Shown one piece after another: positions 551 through 19,574 of a stretch of 35,016 nucleotides of DNA. Position numbers and translations under genes: made by a program. Where the stretch lies: contig JADGPU010000028.1 in the NCBI GenBank assembly GCA_017882305.1, forward strand, positions 1 through 35,016, read 5' to 3'. The stretch's first letter is position 1; each line of letters starts with the position of its first letter. The notes beneath the pieces are model-generated. The model searched no databases. It was not told the DNA's origin and worked only from the letters and a program-made list of their open reading frames with translations. Source of the stretch: Bacteroidales bacterium (lineage in GTDB: Bacteria > Bacteroidota > Bacteroidia > Bacteroidales > VadinHA17).

Positions 551-1993
551 CTATCTCCTACCCGAAGAAGAAGAATGGCCAGATGAAGAACCAGAGGAAG
601 ATCCTGATGAGGAAGATCCTGATGAGGAAGATCCTGATGAGGAAGAACCGCTGGATCCGGAAGATCCGCTATAAGATGAGGAAGATCTGCTACTGCCAGA
701 AGAAGAACCACCATAAGAACCTGAGGAATAACTGCTTCTTGACGGCACAGAATAGCTTCCGGAACTTCTGTAAGAATTCGATCTGGATTGACTGGCTGGA
801 GAATAAGACCCTGAAGGTGAATCACTTCTCCTCTGCATACTGTTCCCTGAAGAGTTGCTTCTGCCACTATTGGAAGAATTCTGGTAAGAACCCTGACTTC
901 TTGAAGGGGTCCTGACAGAACCGGAGTTATTGTAAATCCTGCTGTTATTGGTTGCACCACTATTCCGGTTGACATTGGAATTTGCCCCTTCTGATACTCT
1001 GCTATTGTTATATGATGGCCTCGTACTCATCCTGGGATTATTATAACTGGGTGTATATGTCCTGTTAACACTATTATATGCGGGTTTTACATTTGCGGAG
1101 TTCCTCTGGACAGGAGTACTGGAACGGGTATATACTCCTTTGGTCTGATCCTGAGAAGATTTTCTGCTTACCTGATTAACTGCCTGTTGTGAATTTATAC
1201 CGGATGAAACAGCTCGCCTCTGACCTGCGCCCACTATCTGTGATCCGGAAGTTCTTCCATCAACTCTGGAATTTCCCCCGGCGAGATAAGAATCTCTTCT
1301 TGAAGAGCCCGTAGCAGAGGCATTATTATTCAATCTTGAAGAAAGCGTACTTGCTCTCTCTCTCCTGTGATAAGTCACACTATTTCTCCCGTCATTGCGA
1401 AAGTAACCTCCCGAATAACCGTAAGCATAGTAAGGAGAAAAATATGAACCAAAGCCACCATAATAACCACCATAATAACCTGGGTAGCCTCCATAATAGT
1501 CACCGTATAATCCTCCATAACCCATACCATAACCATAACCCATACCATAACCCATACCATAACCCATACCATAACCCATACCATACCCAAAACCCATGCC
1601 CATCCCATAGTCAAGATAGAAAGGATCTCTCCAGAAAGGATCAAAATAATTTCCGTAAAACATTCTTAACCTGTTGGAATATGGGTAGTCATTATAATAA
1701 TCGTAGCCCTGGTTATTATTATAGTCATTATTATTAACCTGATTATCATAATTAACTGCATCCGAATACTGGTCTGAAACAAGAGTATCAGCTGCATATT
1801 TATTATCATAATAGTCTTTATTCTTTAAAGTGCCTTGGTTAATCTGTTCATTTACAGTCGGATTGTTTTTAGCAACCGGCTTATCTGAAGGCAAATAATA
1901 AAGATCATCGTACTCTGCTCCGGTATAAAGACTTGAGGTACAGGAGCCAAGAGTAAGAACTGCAAGGACTAATATTTGAGATAATGTTTTCAT
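551..1993 (-). CDS. Exported lipoprotein-like Tyr/Gly- and Ser/Arg-rich low-complexity protein
   Basis: This 480-residue protein is not assignable to a named family. It starts MKTLSQILVLAVLTLGSC, a lipoprotein signal with lipobox LGSC, so the mature N-terminus would be Cys18. Residues about 20-115 are rich in Asn, Asp and Tyr. About 125-200 is almost only Gly, Tyr and Met, with GYGM tandem units. The remaining half or more is Ser/Asn/Arg-rich and ends in SSG repeats and SSSSGRR. The segment NRLRMFYGNYFDPFWRDPFY resembles the matching part of the neighbouring gene at 2125-3213, so the two look like diverged paralogues. The strong composition suggests a disordered or aggregating surface protein. 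No catalytic motif and no type IX C-terminal domain is visible. Opposite-strand open frames here are shadows created by the repeats. Confidence 0.7.
   Translation of the reverse strand: MKTLSQILVLAVLTLGSCTSSLYTGAEYDDLYYLPSDKPVAKNNPTVNEQINQGTLKNKDYYDNKYAADTLVSDQYSDAVNYDNQVNNNDYNNNQGYDYYNDYPYSNRLRMFYGNYFDPFWRDPFYLDYGMGMGFGYGMGYGMGYGMGYGMGYGYGMGYGGLYGDYYGGYPGYYGGYYGGFGSYFSPYYAYGYSGGYFRNDGRNSVTYHRRERASTLSSRLNNNASATGSSRRDSYLAGGNSRVDGRTSGSQIVGAGQRRAVSSGINSQQAVNQVSRKSSQDQTKGVYTRSSTPVQRNSANVKPAYNSVNRTYTPSYNNPRMSTRPSYNNSRVSEGANSNVNRNSGATNNSRIYNNSGSVRTPSRSQGSYQNSSNSGRSNSSGNSMQRRSDSPSGSYSPASQSRSNSYRSSGSYSVPSRSSYSSGSYGGSSSGSSRSSSSYSGSSGSSGSSSSGSSSSGSSSSGSSSGSSSGHSSSSGRR
597..641 (-). repeat. 15-bp tandem repeat coding Ser/Gly units
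   Basis: Three consecutive perfect copies of GAAGATCCTGATGAG (plus-strand reading) occupy 597-641, with degenerate copies on both sides. On the coding (minus) strand they give SSSSG-type pentapeptides near the C-terminus of the low-complexity lipoprotein. The 15-bp unit is a multiple of three, so gain or loss of copies keeps the frame. Confidence 0.85.
1516..1610 (-). repeat. 12-bp tandem repeat coding GYGM units
   Basis: The plus strand shows repeated CATACCATAACC-like 12-mers, in part with 6-bp interruptions. On the coding strand they read as GYGM tetrapeptides in the Gly/Tyr/Met-rich centre of the exported protein at 551-1993. The unit is a multiple of three, so length changes would stay in frame. 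Confidence 0.8.
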
Positions 1994-9626: not shown

Positions 9627-9648
9627 TTATCATCAACCACCCCGTCCT

Positions 9649-9791
9649 CTGACAATAAATGTCAGGGTCCACTCCTCCTTTTCAAAGGGGGTGAAACTAT
9701 TGATTTATAATATATTAGTCCAATTCTCTCCTCCTTTTCAAAGGAGAGCCTGCCCCGCTACAGCGGGGAGTACCCCGAAGGGGGGAGGTGG
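9649..9791. repeat. Cluster of short palindromes (REP-like) between tilS and aroC
   Basis: The 183-bp gap between convergent tilS and aroC holds several perfect stems: CTGACA/TGTCAG around ATAAA (9649-9665), a CTCCTTTTCAAAGG-like segment at about 9674-9690, CTCCTTTTCAAAGGAG (9731-9746), CCCCGC/GCGGGG (9753-9768) and CCCC/GGGG around GAA (9773-9783). The CTCCTTTTCAAAG motif occurs twice. The GC-rich stems stand out from AT-rich surroundings. They could end transcription from both sides, but the chain of distinct stems is more like a dispersed intergenic repeat. Confidence 0.8.
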
Positions 9792-9809
9792 TTTGTTACT
9801 TACTAACAA

Positions 9810-14515: not shown

Positions 14516-14626
14516 ATTGAAATAAGAGAAAATTATTCATTAGAAGAAAGAAGGAAAATGACTACCGGGAATCGGAATTAAATCAATATTTGCTATTTTT
14601 AAAATGTAATTGAAAAGATCATATTG

Positions 14627-17600
14627 ATGAATTATAAAGAGAGTTATATTGAGCTTCTGGAAACAAATAAAAGACTGGAGAAGGAACTTGAGTTGATCCG
14701 TTCAAAAAGCCAGGAAAAATCTGAGATCGTCAGGGAAACGATCTTCAGAATTTTTCACTCCGCATCCTATTTAATGGCAATCAGCAAGTTAGATACAGGT
14801 CAGTATGTTGATGTAAATGAGACATTTTATAAAACGCTTGGTTACTCGAAAGATGAGATAATTGGAAAAACTTCTGATGATATCCAGATTTTTGCAGATT
14901 TTGAAGAGAGCAACAAGTATATAAAACTGATTTCCAAACTAAAATGCATCAAAGACTATCCGGTAACCCTGAAAACGAAAACCGGTGAAGAGATATCTTA
15001 TCTTTTTTCAGCTGATACTGTTCAGCTTGAAAATGAGATTTATCTCCTTACAATCTTCACAGAGATTAATACATTAAAAGACAGAAAGATAAAAGACAGT
15101 CACGGAAGTTTGCTGGAAGAAATATTTGAAACTGTCAGCAGTTACCTGGCATTATTCAGTGTTGATAGTGATAACAGGTTTTATATAATTGATTTAAACA
15201 GTAAAGTAGAAGAAGTAGAATTAATCAGGAAAAATGAAGTAATTGGTAAATATATTGAGGAAACCCCCCTGGTTGGCAAGTCTAAGCTTATTGAACTTCT
15301 AAACCACCTGCATTTAACCGGTGATGCACATAAATTAACGGTTTCGCCGAATGGAGATGACTCAGAAGGTTATTATATGGGATTTCTGCTCACTTCGGGA
15401 AATTTCGTAGTAACATGGGAACCAGGAAGTCACCAGAGAAACAAGGATGATCAGAATAAACAAGGTATTGTCTTTGAGAAGTTTGCGGATTTGCTTCCGG
15501 AGATGGTATATGAGGTAGATCTCACAGGAAGGATCTTATACGCCAACAGGCAGGGGTTAAATTTTTTCGGATATACAAAAGAAGAGCTGGAATCTGGTAT
15601 TAATATTGCCGCAATATTTCCTGATAATTATAAGGAAATGATTGAAAATCTGAAGTCACTGACTTCGCCTGGCCAAATCTCAAGTAATGAGTATTTTGCC
15701 AAAAAAAAGGATGGAACTTTAACTCCAATAGTAACACATTCCTTTGCACTTTTTTTTGATGAAAGGATAATTGGATACAGAGGTGTAGTAACAGATATCA
15801 GTAAACAAAAAGAATATGAGAATCAGATTATAAGGGAAAAAGCATTTCTCGAACATTTATATAATTCAACTCCTGCTGCTATCGCAATTACAAGTCCATC
15901 GGGCATAGTCTCCATGATCAACCGCGAGTTCACCAATCTTTTTGGCTTTACATTAGAAGAGGCAGTGAATAAAGATATTAATGATCTTGTGGTTCCGGAT
16001 GATTTTAAAGAAGAAGCCATAAAAATCGATAACCTTGCATCTCTTAACCGGAAGGAGGTACGACAAACCGTAAGAAAGGATAAATATGGGAATAATATTC
16101 ATGTCACACTGGTTGCAACTGCGATAGTAATAAATAATGAAATTGTTGCAAATCTTGGTATCTACAGAGATATCACCACTGAAAGGAAAAATCAGCTTTT
16201 ACAGGAGATTTTATTCAATATTTCAAATGCCGCTCTGAAACAGTACGACATCAAGGAAATTTATCCCATCATTGTTCAGGAGCTAAGTAAAATCTGGGAT
16301 ACTAACAATTTTTTTATAGCTCTTTACGATAAGGCTACCGAAACTCTCTCATTGCCCTTTTTTTCGGACGAAAAGGACAACTTCTATGAAATCCCCATTA
16401 AAAAGACTATAACAGGGTGGGTAATAAATAACAACAAGTCAGTTCTTCTTAAAGGAAAAGATCTGAAGTTTCTCGACGAATCAGGAGCTATTGACCTTGT
16501 AGGAACACCATGTAAAGTCTGGATGGGTGTTCCTCTGAAAGTGGAAAATGATACTATTGGGGTAATGTGTCTGCAGGATTATTATAACGAGGATAAGTTT
16601 TCCCAGGATGATCTTTATATAATGGATTTTATTGCAAATCAGATTGCTATAGCTCTACAGCGGAGAATGATGCTCGATAACATCATTCTTGCCCGACAGA
16701 GAGCTGAAGAGGCAGCACAGTCAAAGCAACTGTTCATGTCGACCATGAGCCATGAGATAAGAACCCCGTTAAATGAAGTAATCGGGATCACGAATCTCCT
16801 CCTTCAGGGAAGTCCCCGTGAAGATCAGATGGATTACATCAAAACCTTGAAATTTTCAGGAAATCATCTGCTTACCCTTGTAAATGATGTCCTCGATTAC
16901 AATAAAATGGAATCGGGTAAAATAATTTTCGAACAGACACAATTTAATCTCAGTGACTTTCTCGACGAGATTTTGAGATCATATTCGTTCAGGTCAAAAG
17001 CAAAGAATCTGAGTTTTGATATAAAGAAAGCAAATGATCTGCCTGCTGAGGTAATAGGTGATCCGATAAGGCTAAATCAGATTCTTTCCAACCTGCTCTC
17101 AAATGCTCTGAAATTCACTATTCATGGAAGTATACAAGTACTGGTAAAAGAATTAAGCCGATCAGATAATCAGTCGAAATTGGAATTTACAGTTACCGAT
17201 ACAGGGATTGGTATTCCTAAAGATAAACACTCTTTAATCTTTGACAGCTTTACTCAAGCTTCGTCAGATACAACCCGACATTTCGGTGGTACAGGACTCG
17301 GCCTTGCAATCTGTAAAAAACTGATTGAATTGCAGGGAGGTACAATTACAATCGATAGTGAAGCCGACAAAGGATCGACTTTCCGGTTTGCCATATCATT
17401 TGGAATTTCGGACAAGGGAGCTCAGTCTCAGGCCGTTGAAGTGCCTGAAACCTTTTCCGGACTCGAAGGCAAAAAGATACTTGTTGCAGAAGATAATAAA
17501 ATAAATTTCTTTGTTGCCAATAAATTCCTGATTGGTTGGGGAATAACGGTAACCCACGCTGAAAATGGTCAGATTGCTCTGGATATTCTTGAAAAAGAAG

Positions 17601-17836
17601 ATTTTGATCTTATATTGATGGATTTACATATGCCTGTTATGGATGGTATTGAAGCTACAAGGATCATCAGAAAATCAAATATTCCAAAGATTCAGAACAT
17701 TCCTATTGTCGCACTCACGGCAGCGATTATGTCAGAAAGCCATGATAAAATTGAGGACCTCAAAATTAATGATTACGTCCTCAAACCTTTCAAACCTCAT
17801 GATCTATTTGAGAGAATACTAAAGCACATAAGGTGA
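14627..17836 (+). CDS. Soluble PAS/GAF hybrid histidine kinase with C-terminal receiver
   Basis: A 1069-residue hybrid sensor kinase without signal peptide or membrane segments, so it senses a cytoplasmic cue. Domains: short coiled coil (10-40), PAS (about 42-150), a PAS-like divergent region (165-268), PAS (285-395, DLLPEMVYEVDLTGRILYAN), PAS (405-520), GAF (525-680), HisKA with phospho-acceptor His709 in MSHEIRTPLNEVIG, HATPase (N-box QILSNLLSNALKFT, G-box GGTGLGLAI) and REC (948-1067) with phospho-Asp999 in ILMDLHMPVMDG and Lys1053 in VLKPF. I use the ATG at 14627; a TTG three bases earlier is also open. No output domain or response regulator is adjacent, so it is an orphan. The partner is likely an Hpt protein or a stand-alone regulator elsewhere. 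Confidence 0.93.
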   Translation: MNYKESYIELLETNKRLEKELELIRSKSQEKSEIVRETIFRIFHSASYLMAISKLDTGQYVDVNETFYKTLGYSKDEIIGKTSDDIQIFADFEESNKYIKLISKLKCIKDYPVTLKTKTGEEISYLFSADTVQLENEIYLLTIFTEINTLKDRKIKDSHGSLLEEIFETVSSYLALFSVDSDNRFYIIDLNSKVEEVELIRKNEVIGKYIEETPLVGKSKLIELLNHLHLTGDAHKLTVSPNGDDSEGYYMGFLLTSGNFVVTWEPGSHQRNKDDQNKQGIVFEKFADLLPEMVYEVDLTGRILYANRQGLNFFGYTKEELESGINIAAIFPDNYKEMIENLKSLTSPGQISSNEYFAKKKDGTLTPIVTHSFALFFDERIIGYRGVVTDISKQKEYENQIIREKAFLEHLYNSTPAAIAITSPSGIVSMINREFTNLFGFTLEEAVNKDINDLVVPDDFKEEAIKIDNLASLNRKEVRQTVRKDKYGNNIHVTLVATAIVINNEIVANLGIYRDITTERKNQLLQEILFNISNAALKQYDIKEIYPIIVQELSKIWDTNNFFIALYDKATETLSLPFFSDEKDNFYEIPIKKTITGWVINNNKSVLLKGKDLKFLDESGAIDLVGTPCKVWMGVPLKVENDTIGVMCLQDYYNEDKFSQDDLYIMDFIANQIAIALQRRMMLDNIILARQRAEEAAQSKQLFMSTMSHEIRTPLNEVIGITNLLLQGSPREDQMDYIKTLKFSGNHLLTLVNDVLDYNKMESGKIIFEQTQFNLSDFLDEILRSYSFRSKAKNLSFDIKKANDLPAEVIGDPIRLNQILSNLLSNALKFTIHGSIQVLVKELSRSDNQSKLEFTVTDTGIGIPKDKHSLIFDSFTQASSDTTRHFGGTGLGLAICKKLIELQGGTITIDSEADKGSTFRFAISFGISDKGAQSQAVEVPETFSGLEGKKILVAEDNKINFFVANKFLIGWGITVTHAENGQIALDILEKEDFDLILMDLHMPVMDGIEATRIIRKSNIPKIQNIPIVALTAAIMSESHDKIEDLKINDYVLKPFKPHDLFERILKHIR

Positions 17837-17987
17837 TCAGGGCGCTGCCCCAAACCCAGCTTTGTTTGTTTTATTATGTTCATTTCTTTTGCTCCTCCAA
17901 AAGAACCGAGCAGAACATAAAGTAAGGATTACAAATCCGAAATATCTACTGCGAGCTCGCCAGAGGCAAATGAACTAAAGAAAAGGA

Positions 17988-18078
17988 GTCCGGAAATGCC
18001 AACTTCAGCCAAAACGGCGCCTGCTACACTTGCCTTATTGGCGCTACCGTTTTGTCTGAAGTTCGCGCCATTTCCGGA
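17988..18078. repeat. Long imperfect hairpin within the 17837-18371 element
   Basis: The left arm (17988-18021) reads TCCGGAAATG, then CAACTTCAGCCAAAACGG, then CGCC. The right arm (18040-18078) is its reverse complement with two 3-bp insertions and few mismatches. The apex is an 18-nt loop. The two arms preserve pairing while differing by compensating small insertions, as expected for a structure-bearing repeat. Confidence 0.85.
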
Positions 18079-18303
18079 TTTGCCATCGCGCTACACCTGA
18101 GAATGTTCAGTAACGAGATCAGTATCGATTGGATTTAAAGTGGCCTCAGAGAATTTTGGGATAAAGCGACTGTTTTGAGGTTTGCTGCGATGGCTTATAG
18201 TAAGCAATACTGTTTGAGGAGGACTCAGGACGACGAGTTGTATTGCGTGGGCAAACCGAAAAACAGGAGCCTCAAAATTATCTGCAGCCTTGATTTTTCT
18301 TTG

Positions 18304-18337
18304 GTTACTTTCTTTTTATCAAGAAAAAGAAAGTAAC
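18304..18337. terminator. 14-bp perfect stem, possible terminator downstream of the TPR gene
   Basis: GTTACTTTCTTTTT (18304-18317) pairs perfectly with 18324-18337 around a 6-nt ATCAAG loop. It lies 35 bp past the stop of the minus-strand TPR gene. There is no external U-run on the minus strand, so terminator function is possible but not certain; it may simply be the end hairpin of the larger repeat element. Confidence 0.5.
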
Positions 18338-18371
18338 TTTAGTTGTAGGGTAATGCCCCATAAAAATTAAA

Positions 18372-19574
18372 TTACTTAATGCAGTTTCTGCTGATATAAT
18401 CTGTCACCCGTTTATTTCCAAGATGAAATGATCTTCTGAAATCGTGACAGGCATCTTCCACCTTTCCTGAATTAAGCAGGGCAATTCCTTTATTAAGCCA
18501 TACGTCAGAATTGGCTGGTTTGAGATCCAGCGACATACTGTAGTCATTAATAGCTAAATCCCATGTTTTCGAGACAAAGTATGAATCTGCACGGTCAATA
18601 TAACATTCCGGATCGTTTGGGTGAAGTTTCAGGTTTTTTGAAAAATATTCCAGAGCTTTCAGGTTATCGCCCGATTTAGCTTCGACCTTTCCGGCAAGGC
18701 TCAAAGCTGCACTGTTCTCCGGATAGATTTCAAGGTATTTCGTAAGATCAGACAAAGCCTTATCTGTTTCCCCGGTTTTTCTGTAACAATCGGCTCTCAG
18801 CATCAGCAATCCGGCATCTGCAACTCCGGAACTGAGAAGTTGAGAATAAGTTGTCGATGCACCCGCCGGATCAGACACCCCGATCTGTGCCTTTGCCAGG
18901 ATTCTTAAATACTTTTCATTCCCCGGATTTAAGTTATTCAGACCGGTAATAACCTTCATTACCTCAGGATACTTTCCCGATGCAAGATTGATCAGTGCCT
19001 CCGCATAAAGTATGTCGGTATTGCTCTCATAACTTTTTTTTAGTTCTGCAAGGACCTCTTTTGACTCATCAATTTTACCGGCTAAGATAAAATATTCTAT
19101 TTCCGAAATACTCTTTTCAGTTATGCTGTACCATTCTTTCTTCCAGAACTGACGCCACTCCTGCCTGTTTTCAATAGTACTGAAGGCCGGATCGAGCATA
19201 ATCTCTTTTTCACCTTTCTTATATTTAGAATTCAGGTTCATTTCAAGATGATATAGTGCTGTAGAAGCATCACCTTTTAATGCATAAATTCTTGAAAGGC
19301 CATATTCTCCAGAGAATGGAGTTATTTTATTAGCTTCGTTAAAATCGCTGATTGCACCGGAATAGTCACCTTTCAGAACGTTCGCTTCAGCTCTTTCCGT
19401 ATATAGTCGGCTCTCTTTTGTTACGCTTATTGCCCCGTCGAGCAGGTTTATCGCCTGTTCAGGTTTCCCTGCCTCTGTAAATGCTCTGGCTTTAAGAATA
19501 TAATCAATAGTCTGTTGACCATAAACTATACCGGAACTTAACAAAATCCAAAACAGAGTTATAATCTTCTTCAT
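18372..19574 (-). CDS. Exported tetratricopeptide repeat protein
   Basis: A 400-residue protein with a signal peptide (MKKIITLFWILLSSGIVYGQ) followed by TPR helices across nearly the whole length. Clear units include AINLLDGAISVTKESRLYTE, NVLKGDYSGAISDFNEANKI, RKTGETDKALSDLTKYLEIY, LKALEYFSKNLKLHPNDPEC and DLAINDYSMSLDLKPANSDV. TPR arrays bind other proteins; no enzymatic domain is visible. The gene starts 18 bp after the CHU_C-domain gene stop and is the last of the minus-strand group that begins with aroQ, so a periplasmic scaffold role alongside the secreted protein is possible. The substrate or partner is unknown. Confidence 0.85.
   Translation of the reverse strand: MKKIITLFWILLSSGIVYGQQTIDYILKARAFTEAGKPEQAINLLDGAISVTKESRLYTERAEANVLKGDYSGAISDFNEANKITPFSGEYGLSRIYALKGDASTALYHLEMNLNSKYKKGEKEIMLDPAFSTIENRQEWRQFWKKEWYSITEKSISEIEYFILAGKIDESKEVLAELKKSYESNTDILYAEALINLASGKYPEVMKVITGLNNLNPGNEKYLRILAKAQIGVSDPAGASTTYSQLLSSGVADAGLLMLRADCYRKTGETDKALSDLTKYLEIYPENSAALSLAGKVEAKSGDNLKALEYFSKNLKLHPNDPECYIDRADSYFVSKTWDLAINDYSMSLDLKPANSDVWLNKGIALLNSGKVEDACHDFRRSFHLGNKRVTDYISRNCIK

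Follow-up and report, generated by a model that had tools for sequence, protein, structure and literature searches.

The window considered here is the whole of a 35,016-nucleotide stretch of DNA from a Bacteroidales bacterium (contig JADGPU010000028.1). Within it, two convergent open reading frames (ORFs), at 14624-17836 on the plus strand and 18372-19574 on the minus strand, border a 535-bp spacer (17837-18371) with no ORF inside. A preliminary description made from the sequence had presented this gene-free stretch as a set of nested inverted repeats, and in its main structural points it is borne out. The imperfect hairpin put at roughly 90 bp spans about 88 bp (17990-18077), the three-level nested hairpin lies at 18142-18289 and the perfect 14-bp stem pairs 18304-18317 with 18324-18337. 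A further hairpin is present on the left (17878-17975), its 3′ arm interrupted by an insert. The repeat finder listed the 14-bp stem only; the imperfect hairpins come from folding and from the comparison of copies.

Each end of the element is a hairpin whose loop pairs upstream, forming a pseudoknot, and the outward units measure 46-55 nt. Read outward, the parts follow one another as the 5′ strand of S1, the loop strand L1, the 5′ arm of S2, the loop holding the S1 partner and the 3′ arm of S2. In the window copy the parts are placed as follows.

17837-18371, no strand assigned: whole spacer with one element copy, from own-genome blastn and from relatives whose flanks lack the element.
17839-17851, no strand assigned: left outer G+C hairpin AGGGC..GCCCC, with counterparts by eye outside the end hairpins in L003, L013, L014 and Caballeronia.
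17878-17975, minus strand: left end hairpin, S2 of the outward pseudoknot, interrupted; arms 17878-17891 and 17898-17905 plus 17970-17975, loop 17892-17897.
17906-17969, no strand assigned: 64-bp insert in the left hairpin arm, of the form CCGA...GGCAA, uncovered by other own-genome matches.
17976-17988, minus strand: purine spacer on the left side, being the complement of L1, and the GGAG at 17985-17988 that pairs in the pseudoknot with the loop CTCC.
17990-18077, minus strand: HP2, the left unit's long hairpin, with greater stability on its outward (minus) strand.
18078-18141, no strand assigned: variable A+T-rich linker joining the two units, from copies compared by eye.
18142-18289, plus strand: nested hairpin HP3 of the right unit, its variable tip closed by GCAATAC/GTATTGC (18204-18210/18240-18246).
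18289-18294, plus strand: S1 5′ strand CTTGAT of the right pseudoknot, pairing with the loop ATCAAG (18318-18323); a covarying helix in other phyla.
18295-18303, plus strand: loop strand L1, TTTTCTTTG, proposed from the mirror rule across ends as the third strand of a major-groove triple helix.
18304-18337, plus strand: right end S2 hairpin with 14-bp stem and loop ATCAAG, from the repeat finder and covariance model R1.
18348-18359, no strand assigned: right outer hairpin (GGGTAATGCCCC), weak in the window copy and stronger in L003, L013 and L014.

The weakly matching termini that had been reported for the stretch are real: a single kind of hairpin stands at both ends, in inverted orientation, and each is flanked on its outer side by a G+C hairpin. 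The right unit of the window copy is complete, and its left pseudoknot is interrupted by the 64-bp insert, so that its two units may have ceased to function as a pair. Model R1 matches 18288-18339 with 71.3 bits (E 5.8e-12), the window copy being also in its training set. In other copies the left S2 arm is uninterrupted (L005, L009 and L013, for example), and among the own-genome blastn matches the pieces of a copy abut across the insert position, as in C89, with a 2-base overlap. Fifteen matches to an insert of this CCGA...GGCAA type, flanked by the same letters of the arm, correspond to 12 distinct places with the window copy included. Such inserts, judged on the arm letters, are also seen in L018, L021, L023, L028, L031, L032 and L034; that of L018 (G031) is close in length to the 64 bp of the window copy.

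The spacer folds beyond chance on both strands. On the plus strand its predicted energy is -172 kcal/mol, whereas 100 shuffles average -136.4 ± 6.6 kcal/mol and none of them reaches so low a value (z -5.4); on the minus strand z is -4.5. Its G+C content is 42.6%. The earlier statement that it is richer in G+C than other spacers holds for eight of the nine others of at least 80 bp (18-37%), counted as gaps between ORFs picked by the analyst from the ORF list, but fails for the spacer at 9627-9809, which has 46.4%. That spacer is made up of short hairpins, CTCCTTTTCAAAGGAG and CCCCGCTACAGCGGGG, and blastn places six more pieces of it in the own genome, including two that overlap on opposite strands.

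The matches found elsewhere identify 17837-18371 as a copy of a non-coding, dispersed repeat. A blastn search of its own genome gave 22 matches, 20 pieces lying on 11 other contigs, and the element was matched in 29 of 60 genomes searched as relatives. End structures were found in 41 of 60 same-genus genomes sampled, using a covariance model of own-genus ends which had been trained on some of the same-genus copies that it later matched; the number of ends per genome in the genus ranges from 0 to 25. Among 149 genomes of the same order, 31 have end structures, in 28 of 132 genera, a count which includes the own genome and one congener. A single decayed copy without covariation, the outcome against which the preliminary description had set its reading, is not what was found: copies are many, and the loop pairing covaries.

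At the window site, ten of eleven same-genus loci have both flanking genes 25 to ~180 bp apart with the element absent, while the eleventh retains one flank only and is uninformative. In Paraburkholderia, one site is filled in 5 of 6 replicons and empty in P. phymatum. Copies therefore come and go; persistence is also possible, since several orthologous sites in Caballeronia and Paraburkholderia are filled in more than one species. Two species carry the element in opposite orientations at a single orthologous site (L002 1502-1893 and L009 1475-1881), showing that copies can be inverted or replaced in place. The breakpoints of this switch lie at the end hairpins, a SAM riboswitch adjoins, and a third species (L018) is arranged as L002. 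Copies from three genomes (L004, L011 and L021) adjoin a gene start that by eye resembles lptF, suggesting a recurrent site. In another genome of the order, G059, the units that were read are solo or in direct order, without inverted pairs, and there are 21 copies of an HP3-like hairpin (by eye) with the pseudoknot. At one locus of that genome (L292, ~1440-1475, minus strand) one unit has shrunk to a short palindrome, GGCATAAAAGCCTGACCCG...CGGGCTTTTATGC, ahead of an intact pseudoknot, resembling an internal deletion.

The same plan recurs well outside the order. When the right part of the element was used as query, matches appeared on plasmids from Ilyobacter (Fusobacteriota) and Pasteurella; the elements there measure ~420-435 bp and are bounded on both sides by ends of this kind. 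Whole elements are thus found in three phyla, Bacteroidota, Pseudomonadota and Fusobacteriota, and a single end at a Selenomonadaceae locus (L178) represents a fourth. A general end pattern matched at least 119 stretches in a genome collection, and among the matches listed (80 of at least 119) are many Burkholderiaceae, other beta- and gammaproteobacteria, a few Selenomonadaceae and one Chitinophaga. The exact end pattern was counted 111 times in Caballeronia fortuita, 276 times in Burkholderia sp. Ac-20365 and 28, 8 and 14 times in three other genomes, with 0 matches to the reversed-pattern control in each of the five. Within its own phylum it matched 3 of 296 genomes, being too strict for most Bacteroidota copies. 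A structural scan of 130 loci from this collection, from viral contigs and from the own phylum, some of them overlapping, kept 188 ends and 58 inward-facing pairs; the distance from end hairpin to end hairpin is 303-757 bp in 56 of the 58, and the inverted ends match perfectly over 101 bp in L215. Two elements of Burkholderia sp. Ac-20365 (L122 3121-3662 and 5387-5927) lie ~1.7 kb apart in mirror arrangement. For E. coli, no match was obtained in a collection of 5,426 genomes with the Pasteurella copy as query, nor was there any match to the HP3 pattern in viral contigs. Carriage by phage was considered and rejected: viral contigs gave 3 end-pattern matches, two of which keep the pseudoknot, and two microvirus records match 31 bases, the one inspected having no such end.

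The mismatches in the end arms indicate which strand folds. Read inward, the arms contain 2632 standard pairs, 75 A.C and 5 G.T mismatches and 73 others; on the outward strand the same mismatches become 75 G.T and 5 A.C, which points to the outward strand as the folded one. The interior hairpins behave likewise. The minus (outward) strand of HP2, in the left half, is the more stable in 23 of 24 copies and the plus strand in one; for HP3, in the right half, 25 of 26 copies favour the plus (outward) strand. Compensatory changes are seen at 13 of 24 shared pairs of HP2 and 14 of 33 of HP3. Across 54 elements taken from the 58 end pairs, at least one of which (L225) comes from the own genome, 91 of 108 halves are more stable as the outward strand (mean -11.5 kcal/mol) and the other 17 are not. 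Wobbles in pairs common to both strands' folds agree in direction but are few (A.C 8 and G.T 3 in HP2, A.C 8 and G.T 13 in HP3). These measures overlap in the data used and the copies are related, hence they are not independent proofs. Taken together, the end mismatches and the preferences of the interior hairpins indicate that the element consists of two outward-reading structured units, head to head. The preliminary description had left the choice between a MITE-like unit and a structured RNA, and each is right in part: the repeat is multi-copy, with inverted ends and no transposase, and it has conserved, strand-specific structure. What that description did not contain is the outward folding of the halves, the interruption of the left hairpin by an insert and the nature of the ends as pseudoknots with a mirror-matched third strand.

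Support for the pseudoknot comes from 190 distinct ends, 46 of them from own-genus loci, which were gathered without use of the pseudoknot criterion, so that the loop-complementarity test on them is not conditioned on it; some of the ends are false and the copies are related, so the counts are not independent. Complementarity of at least 4 nt between the loop and the S1 strand is present in 163 of the 190. Of 66 distinct loops, 51 have it and 15 do not. Re-pairing 2000 times gives 11.5 such loops on average and 22 at most, and shuffling the target letters 500 times gives 15.9 and 24. In a gapless alignment of 39 ends (A2), S1 is 96.9% paired, with changes on both sides at 4 of 5 pairs. Its covariation score is 0.376, as against 0.116 ± 0.012 for shuffled alignments, none of 500 of which reach it, and at most 0.089 for slid versions. 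Two of the five measures on A2 do not stand out, namely two-sided changed pairs (7, with 6.3 in shuffles, 220 of 500 of which get as far) and further pair types (reached by 21 of 500). Since the A2 ends were picked by a scan requiring the pseudoknot, this test of S1 is conditioned. The S1/S2 pseudoknot is supported by covariation.

A second regularity concerns L1. In 62 of the 190 ends the S2 purine tract lacks symmetry around its G, and in these the order of L1 relative to the purine arm is mirror in 56 (47 exactly), direct in 0 and undecided in 6. Thus A4GA3 occurs with T4CT3, A3GA4 with T3CT4 and A2GA4 with T2CT4. Mirror order is the requirement of a Hoogsteen third strand lying parallel to the purine strand, whereas strand exchange or a direct repeat would require direct order. 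The mirror match suggests that L1 runs parallel to the S2 purine strand, and from this we infer that a triple helix actually forms. Between purine tract and spacer runs a lower stem, whose length of 5 nt is shared by 178 of the 190 ends. H-DNA in the duplex also needs mirror repeats; it was rejected, as it accounts for neither the hairpin nor the loop covariation.

An ordinary MITE, moved by cut and paste through a relative's DDE transposase acting on double-stranded terminal inverted repeats and with structure as a by-product of palindromic ends, would explain the many copies, their presence or absence between relatives and the inverted ends with their spacing. It is judged decidedly unlikely, as double-stranded ends need neither strand rules nor mirror rules, and the 75:5 mismatch asymmetry, the mirror order and the loop covariation are unexpected of a double-stranded recognition site. 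Nor was a relative seen with a transposase between such ends. Sequence conservation among 27 Caballeronia copies declines ~70 nt past the end hairpin, and on the outward strand the sequence at 60-70 nt is 59% A and 5% T, this A-rich stretch fading by ~130 nt. No target-site duplication was detected in the 27 copies between 60 and 139 nt outside the end hairpins, the true boundary being uncertain; the best direct repeat was found in 2 copies at k=4, and mispaired controls gave a mean of 2.0 and a maximum of 3. Where filled and empty sites could be compared, among the relatives at the window site and in Paraburkholderia, the flanks are too divergent for a duplication to be read. As had been stated at the outset, the window element contains no transposase. 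A linkage search covering Y1_Tnp tied no transposase, reverse transcriptase or other partner gene to the element, no element was seen to carry one, and two long end pairs (1476 and 3849 bp) have no transposase-like ORF by eye.

The position of the window copy between convergent genes would suit a structured RNA or 3′-end element serving the host, such as a bidirectional terminator or mRNA stabiliser, which is copied passively. Triple helices at RNA 3′ ends do stabilise RNAs in eukaryotes and viruses. Even so, this explanation is thought very unlikely. In ten own-genus end pairs with ORFs on both sides, one is convergent, four are tandem and five divergent, the window copy standing outside the count; the ten remain from 23 rows after removal of 13 (nine being one hairpin on both strands, four without flanking ORFs), and two represent the same site in two species. 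The variation from 0 to 25 ends per genome within the genus also speaks against a host function, as does the lack, by eye, of a U-run outward of the end hairpins.

The main rival to RNA is single-stranded DNA, in a REPIN-like element where the outward strand of the ends folds as such and is recognised by an HUH (Y1) transposase, the knot being DNA. REPINs are built as an inverted doublet of a strand-specific fold, as outlined in the available text of PMC3116915 and PMC8266576. Moreover, Y1_Tnp is matched in 49 of 58 same-genus genomes, and three contigs (L079, L080 and L094) carry both an element and a Y1_Tnp gene, at distances of ~2.9, 3.5 and 7.5 kb. G.T wobble and T.A-T triples occur in DNA as well as in RNA. 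On balance this reading is possible though doubtful. When the end model was applied to 30 stretches around Y1_Tnp genes, 27 had no end, and the other three are the contigs just mentioned, which were included because the element was already known on them and where none of the elements is adjacent to the gene. Three draft genomes (G026, G034 and G020) have 13, 11 and 4 ends and no Y1_Tnp match. There is no GTAG-tagged REP of 20-40 bp, the ends being pseudoknots of 46-55 nt, and the constant short lower stem seems better suited to A-form RNA. An earlier pseudoknot scan of 18 Y1_Tnp stretches gave chance matches only and missed the known L079 element. As candidate partners the Y1_Tnp loci were set aside, five of ten read by eye looking IS200/IS605-like with hairpins of their own.

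Several known systems share features with the repeat. REPINs and the REP-RAYT system have in common with it the inverted doublet of palindromic strand-specific units, the dispersed, non-coding, intergenic location and a presumed mobilisation in trans. According to the available text of two sources, REPs are palindromes of 20-40 bp, mostly tagged GTAG or CGTC (PMC3733652; PMC8266576). No such tag was apparent by eye in the listed end units of 46-55 nt, and the repeat differs further in its pseudoknot with mirror-matched third strand, in its size of 303-757 bp in 56 of 58 pairs and in that no end adjoined a Y1_Tnp (RAYT) gene in the 30 stretches scanned. MITEs are likewise short, non-coding and numerous, with inverted ends and no transposase of their own; here, neither a target duplication nor a parent transposon was found, and the ends follow single-strand and mirror rules. 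Telomerase RNA and the SAM-II and preQ1-II riboswitches contain H-type pseudoknots with a major-groove triple helix. The ends described here share with telomerase-type knots the H-type topology and a pyrimidine L1 proposed to lie in the S2 major groove; unlike them, they are bacterial, dispersed and present at both ends of a repeat, with a longer S2 and a constant 5-bp lower stem, and nothing links the repeat to telomerase or to a ligand. In class, the repeat would appear to combine the inverted-doublet plan of REPINs, the size and ends of MITEs and the end topology of telomerase-type knots.

Other bacterial repeats could be compared by description only. Five families of intergenic repeats in Pseudomonas fluorescens have inverted repeats around a variable core and measure 50-352 bp, with no pseudoknot or triple helix mentioned in the available text (PMC2718517). 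STAXI, as described in the accessible part of PMC2864571, resembles the window repeat in being made of bacterial pseudoknot repeats and differs in its tandem layout, its UUCG loops and its location near DNA-handling genes. The same portion of that source lists Burkholderiales-1, a motif of unclear nature with no Rfam number in the table, which may be the same as the window repeat. Rfam returned 11 matches for the window region up to E 5, all under the gathering score, and across 18 loci (102 kb) only the SAM riboswitches beside L002 and L009 reached the gathering threshold. In a search of mostly open papers, with supplements excluded, no description of the repeat was recognised; it is not claimed to be unpublished.

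Comparison between genomes establishes the dispersion of the repeat, its presence or absence between relatives, the strand rule, the covarying S1 and the mirror rule. The reading that best accommodates these is probably that of a dispersed, non-autonomous, non-coding element made of two head-to-head outward units, each with a triple-helix pseudoknot, whose RNA would be transcribed outward. Each unit would fold on the strand running from centre to outside, forming a long hairpin and then an H-type pseudoknot with an S1 of ~5 bp, an L1 of 8-9 pyrimidine-rich nt, an S2 of 12-14 bp, no L2 and an L3 of ~2 nt. L1 would lie as a third strand along the S2 purine arm (U.A-U, C+.G-C). In many copies a G+C hairpin would come after the pseudoknot, and those of Caballeronia would also have an A-rich tail. 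One or two nucleotides can cross the deep groove of A-form RNA, and RNA is preferred as the molecule because the constant 5-bp lower stem suits this groove and because of the A-rich tails. RNA is thus the first choice. An enzyme supplied in trans would presumably recognise both knots and copy or insert the element.

A bolder version of the RNA reading, which we hold to be unlikely, is that these are RNA-borne mobile elements spanning phyla, in which head-to-head RNAs with a telomerase-type knot and an A-rich tail are recognised in trans. A reverse transcriptase, for instance, might copy the transcript of either strand into new sites, making the element a bacterial counterpart of SINEs.

If the favoured reading of two outward units with triple-helix pseudoknots is correct, at least three phyla carry a repeat whose ends follow one triple-helix pseudoknot plan, with up to hundreds of ends per genome. 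They would form a naturally occurring collection of bacterial triple-helix RNAs or DNAs in which base triples already covary, and the mirror rule could be put to the test at the bench on a 46-nt oligonucleotide. The ends would also offer a handle on the enzyme that spreads them, and would account for a large and apparently unannotated class of repeats in the Burkholderiaceae and the Bacteroidota.
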